Part shown: positions 2,298 to 27,007 of the stretch, piece by piece
How the letters are laid out: each line of letters begins with the position of its first letter
How positions within the stretch are numbered: position 1 is the first letter of the stretch
Source of the DNA: a bacterium
GTDB taxonomy: Bacteria > Omnitrophota > Gorgyraeia > Duberdicusellales > 4484-171
DNA: 34,868 nucleotides
Direction of reading: 5' to 3'
Assembly: GCA_021796115.1 (NCBI GenBank)
Contig: JAJYOP010000002.1
Span: 134,842 to 169,709 of the forward strand
Translations under genes and position numbers: made by a program
The notes under the pieces: model-generated
Told to the model about the DNA's origin: nothing
Seen by the model: only the letters and a program-made list of their open reading frames with translations
Database searches by the model: none

Positions 2298-2460
2298 TTA
2301 TTTTTAAGGACGGATGTCACGGATGATTGTGGATGCATACGGATAATTATAGGTTTTTTATCCGTCTGCATCCGCCCCCTGAATAATCTAGATTTTTATC
2401 TTCGTTATCGCTTGTTTTACATAGAGTTATGCAAAGATACCCTTAAATTTTGGGGAATGT
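2298..2460. repeat. ACGGATG-family dispersed repeat, copy 1 (gene-free)
   Basis: About 163 bp that is nearly identical to 22610-22793. It contains ACGGATGTCACGGAT (2310-2324) and a hairpin with a 16-bp arm, GGATGCATACGGATAA (2331-2346) against TTATCCGTCTGCATCC (2358-2373), 15 of 16 pairs. The remaining 85 bp after the hairpin are also shared with the second copy, which carries a 21-bp insert absent here. The copy lies 14 bp after the insertion sequence and ends 7 bp before the 3' end of the GT9 gene, so it may act as its transcript end. Confidence 0.85.
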
Positions 2461-4352: not shown

Positions 4353-5384
4353 ATGAACTCATTTAAACGAGAAAATATCGAGTTACCTTTAAGTGCTGTT
4401 TGGCTTATGAATTCTATAGCTGAATATAAAGGTAAACAGGAACTTTACACCAAACAATCGCCGCAGATTTTAAAAACTTTGCTTGAGACAGCATTAATCG
4501 AAAGTACGGAATCATCTAACCGTATCGAGGGTGTAACCGTCGAACATGCACGATTAAAACCACTCATTATCGGCCATAGCAAGCCGCGTGACCGTTCCGA
4601 AGAAGAAATCGCGGGTTATCGTAAAGCGCTCGACCTGATTCATACCAGATACAAAGCCCTTCGGATTGCTCCGGAAACCATCAAAGAATTACATCGACTT
4701 TGCCGAGGTGAATTAGCAGACGCCGGCAAATGGAAAGAAAAAGATAATGACATTATTCGCAAGCATCCTGACGGTCGCGTTGAAATTATCTTTAAACCGG
4801 TCAGTGCGGCTAAAACACCTGAAGCGATAAAACAATTATGTTTATCTTACGAGCATAGTATCTCACAGCTTAAATACCCTGATCTTTACGCGGTCGCCTG
4901 CCTTGTGCTTGATTTTTTAAGTATTCATCCATTCCGCGATGGTAACGGTAGAGTGTCGCGACTCCTGACCCTGCTTGCGCTTTATCAACATGGCCTTATG
5001 GTCGGAAAGTATATCAGCCTTGAGCGTATCGTTGAACAATCAAAAGAAACCTATTATGAATCGCTCAATAAAAGCTCACAAAGATGGCACGAAGCCAAGC
5101 ATGATACTACTCCATGGTTTAACTATTTCCTCGGAACTGTACTCGCCGCCTATAAGGAATTTGAGGAACGAGCGGAAAATATCAAACCTGCACGAGGAGC
5201 TAAGACGCAATTTGTAATACAAGCAATCGAACGGCGGGTGGGAGAATTTAGTTTAAGCGATATTGAACGAGAGTGCCCAAGCGCTAGCCGTGAAATGATA
5301 AAAATTATATTCAGAGAATTGCAAAAAGCGAAAAAGATTAGATGTCTCGGCAAAGGCAAAAGCGCAAAATGGAAAAAGGTTTAA
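4353..5384 (+). CDS. Fic domain protein (probable AMP-transferase) with N-terminal inhibitory motif
   Basis: Fic enzymes attach AMP, or another phosphate-containing group, to a hydroxyl side chain of a target protein. The catalytic motif HPFRDGNGRVSR is at residues 192-203, with H192 and the anion-binding loop intact. The inhibitory motif (S/T)xxxE(G/N) is present before the Fic core as S55-x3-E59-G60, which marks a class II Fic protein that holds itself inactive. The C-terminal 70 residues (SLSDIERECP, MIKIIFRELQKAKKI) look like a winged helix. At 343 residues it is a typical Fic/DUF4172-like length. It follows the XRE-cupin gene by 5 nt. After the stop come three GGGTAAT repeats (about 5386-5424) of unknown meaning. 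Confidence 0.92.
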   Translation: MNSFKRENIELPLSAVWLMNSIAEYKGKQELYTKQSPQILKTLLETALIESTESSNRIEGVTVEHARLKPLIIGHSKPRDRSEEEIAGYRKALDLIHTRYKALRIAPETIKELHRLCRGELADAGKWKEKDNDIIRKHPDGRVEIIFKPVSAAKTPEAIKQLCLSYEHSISQLKYPDLYAVACLVLDFLSIHPFRDGNGRVSRLLTLLALYQHGLMVGKYISLERIVEQSKETYYESLNKSSQRWHEAKHDTTPWFNYFLGTVLAAYKEFEERAENIKPARGAKTQFVIQAIERRVGEFSLSDIERECPSASREMIKIIFRELQKAKKIRCLGKGKSAKWKKV

Positions 5385-5442: not shown

Positions 5443-5940
5443 GGGATGCAGACGGATGGTTACGGATGTCACGGATGATAAATTACTGTACCGCTCATTG
5501 ACTTATAAAGTTATTGGGATTTTTTATAAAATTCATACCGCTCTCGGCTGTGGTTTTCCCGAAAAGATCTACCAGAAAGCCATTGAAATAGAGCTAAAGA
5601 AAGAACGAATCCCATATGAAACTGAAAAAGCGATAAAAGTTGTATATGCCGAAGAGCAAGTAGGCACCTTTCGGCTAGACTTAGTCATTGATAAAAAAGT
5701 AATCGTCGAATTAAAAGCAGTAGATTTTTTGCCTAAAATACACAAAGAACAGTTAATTTCGCAATTGAAAGCTTCACCATATGAGATAGGTCTACTAGTA
5801 AACTTCGGTGCAGCTAAATTAGAATATATTCGAATAATTCGTTCTAAATAATAGTGGATGCATGCGGGTGTTTTTAGATTTATGTGGATAATTGCTTCTT
5901 ATCCGTTTGCATTCGTAATGATCCGTGACATCCGTCCTTA
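5443..5940 (+). mobile_element. Inverted-repeat element carrying the GxxExxY gene (ACGGATG family)
   Basis: The GxxExxY gene is enclosed by repeat arms of the same family as the gene-free copies. Left arms: A, GGATGCAGACGGATGG (5444-5459) and B, ACGGATGTCACGGAT (5462-5476). Right arms: A', ATCCGTTTGCATTC (5901-5914, two mismatches to A) and B', ATCCGTGACATCCGT (5921-5935, exact complement of B). The order is A-B-gene-A'-B', not the nested order of a normal insertion sequence. The right end TAAGGACGGATG... (read on the minus strand) matches copies 1 and 2. I infer an element boundary near 5443 and 5940; no target duplication is obvious. Confidence 0.65.
5456..5851 (+). CDS. GxxExxY family protein (PD-(D/E)XK nuclease-like)
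   Basis: A small protein of 131 residues with the naming motif in GCGFPEKIYQKAIEIEL and a putative nuclease core, FRLDLVIDKKVIVELKAV, where D and E-x-K have the spacing of PD-(D/E)XK folds. The family is classed with nuclease-like proteins but its function is not established. The start ATG 5456 lies inside the left repeat, so residues 1-8 (MVTDVTDD) are translated repeat; no Shine-Dalgarno is visible. The gene ends 3 bp before the next repeat sequences. A later start is not available before the conserved region, which suggests the repeat was domesticated as the translation start. Neighbours on both sides look unrelated, consistent with a mobile cassette. Confidence 0.85.
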   Translation: MVTDVTDDKLLYRSLTYKVIGIFYKIHTALGCGFPEKIYQKAIEIELKKERIPYETEKAIKVVYAEEQVGTFRLDLVIDKKVIVELKAVDFLPKIHKEQLISQLKASPYEIGLLVNFGAAKLEYIRIIRSK

Positions 5941-6339: not shown

Positions 6340-6414
6340 CGGATTCAAACGGATGGCTACGGATGTCACGGATAAATCCATCCGTTTGAATCCGCAATAA
6401 TCCGCGACATCCGT
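6340..6414. repeat. ACGGATG-family palindromic repeat, interleaved A-B-A'-B' form
   Basis: A compact copy of the repeat with no gene inside. A, CGGATTCAAACGGATGG (6340-6356), is the perfect complement of A' (6378-6394, 17 bp). B, ACGGATGTCACGGAT (6359-6373), complements B' (6400-6414) at 14 of 15 positions. A/A' and B/B' hairpins cannot form together without an unlikely long pseudoknot, so they are alternatives. It fills the gap from the response regulator stop to 9 bp before the kinase start and has replaced any ribosome binding site there. Confidence 0.85.
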
Positions 6415-6423
6415 TCCCCCTAT

Positions 6424-17453: not shown

Positions 17454-17923
17454 AAATTCCAAGCTCCAAGCACCAAATTCCAATGTTCAAATGACCAAAA
17501 CATTATTTCAAGATTGAAGAAAAGATTTTTTTAAATTCTATCGCTTCTCCTCGTAAAACCATTACTTCGCCTCTCAAGTCTTCACTGTTTGTATCTACAA
17601 GCAAACTTAGCCAATAAGCTGACTCTTTAGCTTCTTTTCGGCATATCTTAATTCGCATCAAAAAATCTTTTTTACTCAATGCTTCATTAGCCTCGATATA
17701 ATTTGCGCCAATCGAGCTCGAAGCTCTTATTAATTGTCGCACATACTCGATATTCGAGGTATTTTTCGGAAACTTTTTACTTAAAATAGCCACACTCAGT
17801 GCAAATTTATAAGTACGTTCTTCTAAATCATATTTTGGAACAACCCTCTCTGTCCTCGTTTTGGAAATTGTAATTTCGGTCATTGGAATTTATTTGGTGC
17901 TTGGAATTTGGGATTTGGAATTT
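17454..17923 (-). mobile_element. Inverted-repeat element carrying the four-helix-bundle gene
   Basis: The small gene at 17503-17883 is bounded by imperfect inverted arms of about 45 bp. The left arm (17454-17502) begins AAATTCCAAGCTCCAAGCAC and continues through CCAATGTTCAAATGACC; the right arm (17880-17923), read on the minus strand, begins AAATTCCAAATCCC and holds CCAAGCACCAAAT and TTCCAATGACC. A gene-free copy of the same arms lies at 20258-20446. The element separates the second dehydratase from KS4 and supplies the last codons of the former. Outer boundaries are judged from where similarity between the copies stops. Confidence 0.65.
17503..17883 (-). CDS. Four-helix-bundle protein (S23 / rRNA intervening-sequence family)
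   Basis: A 126-residue all-helical protein of the S23 family, first known from intervening sequences in 23S rRNA of Leptospira and others and related in fold to the Avd protein of diversity-generating retroelements. Diagnostic segments are YDLEERTYKFALSVAILSKK, ASSSIGANYIEANEALSKKD and MRIKICRKEAKESAYWLSLL. Function is not established; the basic surface suggests nucleic acid binding. The start ATG 17881-17883 lies in the right arm of the repeat, so the first residues (MTEITISK) derive from it. Here it is not in an rRNA gene but between two fatty-acid genes of one operon. No reverse transcriptase or variable repeat is nearby. Confidence 0.9.
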   Translation of the reverse strand: MTEITISKTRTERVVPKYDLEERTYKFALSVAILSKKFPKNTSNIEYVRQLIRASSSIGANYIEANEALSKKDFLMRIKICRKEAKESAYWLSLLVDTNSEDLRGEVMVLRGEAIEFKKIFSSILK

Positions 17924-18378
17924 TTAATCGTTTCTTTAAGCATAACTCCGAACATAATCCGTGCTTTGGTTACAACTTCATCATTAACTTTGGCTATGGC
18001 ATTAACTACTCCGGCATTAGCCATAAGTTTTTCTTTGCTAATTTCAATCACAAGCTGGTCCCCAACTGTAACCGGCTTTATGAATTTTGCTTCGACTTTA
18101 CCGAAATAATAAGTAGGGTGCTGGCTTGCAATTTCCGGTTTTAAGGCAGCAAAACCTAGAATGCTTGCCTGTGCCATAGCCTCAAGGATAATTACACCGG
18201 GAACTACCGGCATCCCGGGAAAGTGGCCGACAAAAAAATGCTCATCGTTCGTAAAATTTTTAAGACAGGTTATTTTACCTATTGTGATATCTACAGCTAA
18301 TACTCTGTCGATAAAAATAAAAGGGTAGCGCTGTGGTAGAATCTCCTGAATTTTATTTATATCCCAAATTCCTTCCAT
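17890..18378 (-). CDS. FabZ-type 3-hydroxyacyl-ACP dehydratase, second copy, with repeat-derived tail
   Basis: Dehydratase of the FabZ hot-dog family. Catalytic H52 is in FFVGHFPGMPVVPG and E66 in IILEAMAQAS; the opening DINKIQEILPQRYPFIFIDR matches the first copy. The protein is 162 residues, about 15 longer than the first copy. The last 11 codons and the stop (KNSKSQIPSTK) are read from the arm of the neighbouring four-helix element, so the native stop was lost when the element arrived. The extra tail is unlikely to harm the hot-dog core. The gene begins 3 nt after the HEPN gene, so the toxin-antitoxin-like pair is co-transcribed with it. Confidence 0.92.
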   Translation of the reverse strand: MEGIWDINKIQEILPQRYPFIFIDRVLAVDITIGKITCLKNFTNDEHFFVGHFPGMPVVPGVIILEAMAQASILGFAALKPEIASQHPTYYFGKVEAKFIKPVTVGDQLVIEISKEKLMANAGVVNAIAKVNDEVVTKARIMFGVMLKETIKNSKSQIPSTK

Positions 18379-22577: not shown

Positions 22578-22609
22578 ATAGTCTCTGTTACTTGAGTTTC
22601 CCCATTTTT

Positions 22610-22793
22610 TTATTTTTAAGGACGGATGTCACGGATGATTGTGGATGCATACGGATAATTATAGGTTTTTTATCCGTCTGCATCCGCTAAAATCCGTTTG
22701 CCTCCGCTCCCTGAAGCATCATAGATTTTTATCTTCGTTATCGCTTGTTTTACATAGAGTTATGCAAAGATACCCTTAAATTCTGGGGAATGT
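22610..22793. repeat. ACGGATG-family dispersed repeat, copy 2 (gene-free)
   Basis: A 184-bp copy nearly identical to 2298-2460 in the same orientation. It differs mainly by a 21-bp insert, TAAAATCCGTTTGCCTCCGC plus one base, next to the hairpin, which looks like an added half repeat. The shared part includes the non-palindromic tail with TTATCTTCGTTATCGC and CATAGAGTTATGCAAAG. High identity over the whole length implies recent spread or gene conversion. Confidence 0.88.
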
Positions 22794-22908
22794 TCAGGTC
22801 TCTGTTAAACAGAAAGCGTTTTCAAAAATACACCTCTAAACTATTGAATACGCCTTCAAAAAAATGTTATTTCTTAAATAGGGCTCTTTCAGTAGAGCCA
22901 AAGCCACG

Positions 22909-26827: not shown

Positions 26828-27007
26828 GGCAGTAAAATAGAATTTTTTATCGCGGACACAGAGGCATGGTTTCGGATGCCACGGATTACAATATCCGTTG
26901 GATCCGCTACCATCTGTCTGCATCCGTTTTTTTCAAACTTTAGTAGAAACAAAACAATTTTATGATAAAATATTTTTTATTCAAGTTGTTTATCATTACA
27001 TAAATAA
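26828..27007. other. Divergent intergenic region with repeat copy and palindrome
   Basis: The gap between the two divergent genes holds a degenerate ACGGATG-family repeat (26852-26930) and a near-perfect palindrome, ATTTTATgATAAAAT (26957-26971), that could be a promoter -10 region or an operator for the right-hand gene. No clear -35 box is seen. Confidence 0.45.
26852..26930. repeat. ACGGATG-family repeat, degenerate copy
   Basis: Contains CGGATGCCACGGAT (26873-26886), ATCCGTTGGATCCG (26892-26905) and CTGTCTGCATCCGT (26914-26927), the same units as the other copies but in nested rather than interleaved order and with more mismatches. It overlaps the 5' side of the aminotransferase gene and creates a false upstream start. 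Confidence 0.7.

Follow-up and report, generated by a model that had tools for sequence, protein, structure and literature searches.

REP sequences are GTAG-tagged, and the RAYT protein is an HUH/Y1 transposase. In the REPIN/RAYT (TnpA-REP) system (e.g., PMC3116915, PMC8266576), a single gene copy has inverted palindromic repeats on its two sides. A second described design is the intervening sequence (IVS) of 23S rRNA genes, which in Coxiella burnetii contains an S23 ORF and a 28-bp terminal stem that is cut by RNase III, with tandem heptamers (GACAGAT) of variable number adjoining the ORF (PMC4990558). The 23S rRNA IVS are regarded as selfish, and their ORF is often decaying (PMC4990558). Annotation pipelines report GxxExxY and S23 proteins, two common families of unknown role, from many genomes, and among the intergenic repeats of the environmental genomes examined, palindromes built of tandem words are frequent.

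The window analysed here, i.e., the whole stretch of 34,868 nucleotides, carries a feature that is probably a mobile cassette of ~0.5 kb, in which one small Cas4/RecB-like GxxExxY nuclease gene lies between inverted tandem-word arms, and which resembles both the IVS and the REPIN/RAYT systems. As far as could be found, minimal mobile DNA of such a design is undescribed outside ribosomal RNA genes; the open-access literature, searched with the family name and the repeat words, returned no description of such an element, an absence that counts as weak evidence.

The GxxExxY gene and its arms

The left modules A and B and the right modules A' and B' were found where the initial annotation had placed them, and B and B' are exact reverse complements (Table 1). 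Their order in the window element is A, B, gene, A', B', i.e., interleaved, and a nested palindrome is excluded. This order holds for the window and was rejected as a general one, as 12 nested arrangements, 10 interleaved ones and three ties were counted across the loci. The origin of the first eight codons from the repeat, also claimed at the outset, was confirmed: the ATG start codon lies inside arm A and codons 1–8 (MVTDVTDD) are read from the repeat.

Table 1. Features of the window, numbered from its first nucleotide
Feature	Position	Strand	Description	Basis
ACGGATG palindrome within MITE-like element	2310-2375	+	left end of the MITE-like element lost, right end near 2464	
Fic-domain gene	4353-5384		adjoins the GxxExxY element; both absent from G002	
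Left arm	5443-5476	+	modules A (5443-5461) and B (5462-5476), ACGGAT words ~9-10 nt apart; letters GGGATGCAGACGGATGGTT + ACGGATGTCACGGAT	sequence, exact 15-mer
GxxExxY gene	5456-5851	+	131 aa plus stop, predicted PD-(D/E)XK fold	PF13366, TIGR04256, AlphaFold2, fold match
Right arm	5901-5935	+	modules A' (5901-5920) and B' (5921-5935), in inverse orientation to the left arm; letters ATCCGTTTGCATTCGTAATG + ATCCGTGACATCCGT	sequence
Gene-free palindrome, same word	6340-6415	.	in the gap from the response regulator stop to the histidine kinase start	
S23 cassette	17455-17930	-	S23 four-helix-bundle gene (17503-17883) flanked by inverted arrays of 7-nt words of the CCAAATT type; second armed cassette of the same general design	
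Complete ~205-bp MITE-like element	22594-22797	+	holds ACGGATG palindrome 22622-22708	
Gene-free diverged palindrome, same family	26852-26928	.		sequence match, folding

The only domain found in the gene is PF13366 (E 1.6e-36), the match starting at residue 14 of the protein, and the score against TIGR04256 (E 8.1e-38; 129.4 bits against a curated cut-off of 35) places it in the GxxExxY family. The motif residues D75, E85-x-K87, Q99 and Y103 are all conserved; among 76 GxxExxY sequences D75 and K87 are invariant and E85 is near-invariant. A profile search for sequence relatives in the PDB found none. The AlphaFold2 model (pLDDT 91.5) had its best match among solved structures in SSO0001 (4ic1; E 2.5e-4), a Cas4 nuclease, followed by LHK-Exo and, more weakly, by lambda exonuclease, MGME1 and the nuclease domains of AddAB/AdnAB; tRNA-splicing endonucleases were also among the weak matches. 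As both the fold and the D...(D/E)xK residues of the PD-(D/E)XK superfamily are present, the protein is a predicted nuclease, confidently modelled, with a fold closest to that of Cas4.

The S23 genes of related genomes are enclosed by arms in the same way as that of the window (median score 35 for arms of the same locus and 18 across loci). Their arms have a clean period of 7 nt on both sides (lags 7, 14, 21 and 28); in the arms of GxxExxY genes the period is 9 nt, or 10 nt for the closest relatives, with no 7-nt signal, and the controls are flat.

Distribution of the arm words

The 15-mer of the arm, with up to three mismatches, matched eight times in the window against 0.38 expected, a number reached in none of 100 shuffles. 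The genome-wide search proposed in the initial annotation gave 39 matches with up to two mismatches in the 1.72-Mb assembly, and none for the reversed-pattern control, but only one GxxExxY gene with which they could be associated (the assembly is 87.75% complete). The four copies described at the outset as gene-free proved to be of two kinds. The 6340 and 26852 copies stand on their own as free palindromes, while those at 2298 and 22610 are passengers of an unrelated element of ~210 bp with the ends CTGGAGYTTCCCC...GGGGAATGTTCAG, which is repeated around the genome and carries an ACGGATG palindrome. This CTGGAG element looks like a MITE and is separate from the GxxExxY element; copies of it with a captured ACGGATG palindrome were also seen at L001, L003, L005-L007, L015, L019 and L020. 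The suggestion that all gene-free copies are deletion derivatives of the window element is ruled out for 2298 and 22610, since both lie within the MITE-like element; it keeps its place for the free palindromes, which may be derivatives or an independent population. There are about ten of these, of ~80 nt each, nearly all in short intergenic gaps. The palindromes at 6340 and 26852 folded much more stably than shuffled sequences, with z-scores of -4.1 and -6.3, respectively. The ACGGATG word also occurs in genomes where no GxxExxY gene was found (e.g., G001). Elsewhere in the window, a 398-aa ORF (1057-2253) has a weak match to the IS481 transposase (20.4 bits, cut-off 224), and an Rfam search of the window gave no match.

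The GxxExxY loci of relatives likewise have inverted arms, in which the word varies by locus (GATTACACAGATT, CACAGAG, CACGAAG, CGCAGAT, CGCTAATT, CACGGAT). The median arm-to-arm score was 35.5 within loci and 20 between them in a sample of 80 loci, representing more than ten phyla, which was drawn with the GATTACA-type subset A2, as alignment A1 was too diverse for the collection scan, and is biased towards the GATTACA clade. The initial annotation was to be abandoned if the repeat and GxxExxY genes showed no association genome-wide; the source genome has a single such gene, and across genomes the association is strong, the inversion of the arms exceeding the 95th percentile of 169 control genes at 58 of 77 GxxExxY loci (p about 1e-24). 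Moreover, loci with similar proteins have similar arms, even when they come from different phyla (Mantel rho 0.61, reached in 0 of 500 permutations). ACGGATG is not a hallmark of the family, whose protein clades each use a word of their own. Words of the GATTACACAGATTA type are strongly over-represented in many relatives, with 97 exact matches in 58 genomes and none for the reversed control. One genome, G019, has 22 GxxExxY matches, mostly decayed fragments, which suggests a past burst. The plasmid collection, searched for polymorphic copies, yielded seven matches, all distant.

The cassettes occupy tight intergenic gaps, as would be expected if GxxExxY or S23 were an RNA-binding protein or ribonuclease acting on the transcribed stem and the cassette were chiefly regulatory. 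The stems are predicted to fold well as RNA (z -3 to -6), tRNA-splicing endonucleases appear among the weak fold matches, and RNase III cuts the S23-encoding IVS out of 23S rRNA (PMC4990558), all of which agree with such a role. However, the cassettes have no excess of sense-strand orientation, 48 of 63 being co-directional with both neighbours compared with 79 of 107 other genes; the gene can occur in either orientation at one site, and GxxExxY is patchy, being present in 19 of 58 relatives. We consider a mainly regulatory cassette improbable.

The proximity of the Fic gene raises another explanation, according to which the Cas4-like nuclease gene belongs with it to a defence or toxin-antitoxin system and the repeats adjoin it by chance, and both genes are indeed absent from the corresponding site of the sister species G002. 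Nevertheless, in the loci read, the neighbours of the cassettes are varied housekeeping genes, and an association with arms at 58 of 77 loci is systematic, which makes this explanation very improbable.

Insertion sites and rearrangements

The reading of the feature as a small gene-carrying element, already made in the initial annotation, is borne out by arms and gene that travel together, by empty sites and inversions in related elements and by the lack of the element in G002. In WOR-3, where two related assemblies contain 19 and 13 matches, the F1 family comprises six copies that are 90-95% identical over arms and gene and have unrelated flanks. Orthologous sites without the element fix the F1 ends with nucleotide precision: the insertion lies before GGAGG at the first (CTCCCCAAAA^GGAGGTAAAAATG) and before GGGG at the second (ACTTAA^GGGGTTAA...ATG), and a third site, ATTA^GGAGG, agrees with them on the right side. 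F1 copies terminate with ...CATTATACC-AGG(A/G)G directly 5' of the downstream Shine-Dalgarno sequence, with the exception of L200, which has ...GATTATACC; hairpins are present at both ends, and the target duplication at the empty sites is 0-2 bp. These exact junctions belong to the GATTACA-type word clade, other than that of the ACGGAT element of the window, whose right arm ends ~20 nt 5' of the downstream Shine-Dalgarno sequence, whereas the F1 elements are directly adjacent to it.

For the window element, the comparison with empty sites in sister genomes that had been proposed was answered in part. At the orthologous site of G002 the HTH-cupin gene is followed directly by the response regulator gene and the element is lacking, but the exact ends of the element are not fixed by this, because the difference also takes in the Fic gene. 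In the gap between the regulator and the kinase, where the window has the palindrome 6340-6415, G002 has a palindrome of a different word (L173, ~1450-1530), the two being species of one genus.

Several pairs of loci revealed rearrangements in place. The gene is reversed between L191 and L214, which represent one site (flanks 97-98% identical), and likewise between L133 and L140 at the ruvX site of Mucilaginibacter; L193 and L215 carry different GxxExxY elements at one site. In the pair L033 and L037 both arms differ at once by one 9-nt word (three words versus two). Host recombination of the ordinary kind, or template switching where repeats are inverted, could account for inversion and arm homogenisation. 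At the orthologous GxxExxY sites L198 and L199 an adjoining tandem array of ~190 bp differs in copy number. In three F1 copies, L090, L093 and L095, a small palindrome, ATCCGTTAGCTAACGGAT, is inserted in the GxxExxY coding region near its 3' end. These three share the disrupted gene yet occupy different sites, so that a copy can move without a protein of its own.

The main rival explanation draws on these observations: host template switching or recombination at quasi-palindromes, or a foreign transposase, would make, homogenise, flip and spread the palindromes, and the GxxExxY and S23 genes would merely sit in the loop. The concerted change of both arms (L033/L037), the in-place inversions, the disrupted-gene copies at several sites, the gene-free palindromes that far outnumber the genes and the palindromes carried by the MITE-like element are all in line with it. 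It does not predict, however, that the type of word tracks the protein clade across phyla, nor that the spacing of the words depends on the gene family carried (7 nt with S23, 9-10 nt with GxxExxY), and the conserved catalytic residues speak against it as well. We regard it as unlikely, though less so than the regulatory and defence explanations. In close kin, the cassette with its arms inserts as a unit into intergenic gaps, and the site context, the inversion, the clade-specific words and the conservation of the catalytic residues are established.

Proposed mechanism and comparison with known systems

Returning to the mobile cassette, we infer that the nuclease itself moves it. The nuclease would recognise its own word arms as a hairpin, cruciform or duplex, and its cut at the arms would initiate the excision, copying or inversion of the cassette. 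The palindromes that share its word but lack a gene may be non-autonomous copies mobilised in trans, as is presumed of REPINs and RAYTs. Once transcribed into mRNA, the arms would form a stem cuttable by the host RNase III, a processing that is a prediction for the stems of the window, and insertion into operons could in this way be tolerated, as for the 23S rRNA IVS.

It is possible, and put forward here tentatively, that the GxxExxY elements, with those of S23 as their parallel, constitute a new mobile-element class, in which a stand-alone Cas4-like PD-(D/E)XK nuclease recognises its own tandem-word arms, moves the armed DNA beside Shine-Dalgarno sites with no transposase or recombinase of a known kind, and underlies the intergenic palindromes dispersed in many bacterial phyla. 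The rRNA IVS are probably one case among a broader group of armed cassettes with a single gene, of which the GxxExxY cassettes would be the nuclease-bearing variant; the likeness seen between the two kinds lies in their design. If one class of minimal cassettes explains both the genes and the repeats, it would give the genes a role, the repeats an origin and both a link to the rRNA IVS, and, if true, a mobile element would have at its core a nuclease fold uncommon among stand-alone transposases. With exact empty sites and in-place inversions at hand, the mechanism can be tested directly.

The window protein belongs to the sequence family TIGR04256/PDDEXK_3 (PF13366) and has the fold and the QxxxY motif of the Cas4/RecB nucleases, but it is stand-alone and single-domain, and no CRISPR or helicase genes adjoin it. 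A classical MITE of a DDE transposon has terminal inverted repeats and a target duplication of fixed length; for the related F1 elements the empty sites show 0-2 bp, and the window element has ends that are not fixed. With its hairpins at both ends, target duplication of at most 2 bp and fixed 3' target context, F1 resembles IS200/IS605, whereas the GxxExxY elements have no Y1 transposase and possess another nuclease fold. Like the rRNA IVS, the window element has terminal inverted repeats around one small ORF, which lies in the loop of the stem they form. The IVS, however, is inserted in rRNA genes and combines S23 with tandem heptamers, while the window element is flanked by protein genes and combines a predicted PD-(D/E)XK nuclease with words of 9-10 nt. 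With REPIN/RAYT the window element shares a single gene copy between inverted repeats and dispersed gene-free intergenic palindromes of the same sequence as the repeat flanking the gene, with presumed mobilisation in trans; in place of the HUH/Y1 transposase of RAYT, its protein has a Cas4-like PD-(D/E)XK fold, and its repeats are tandem words.
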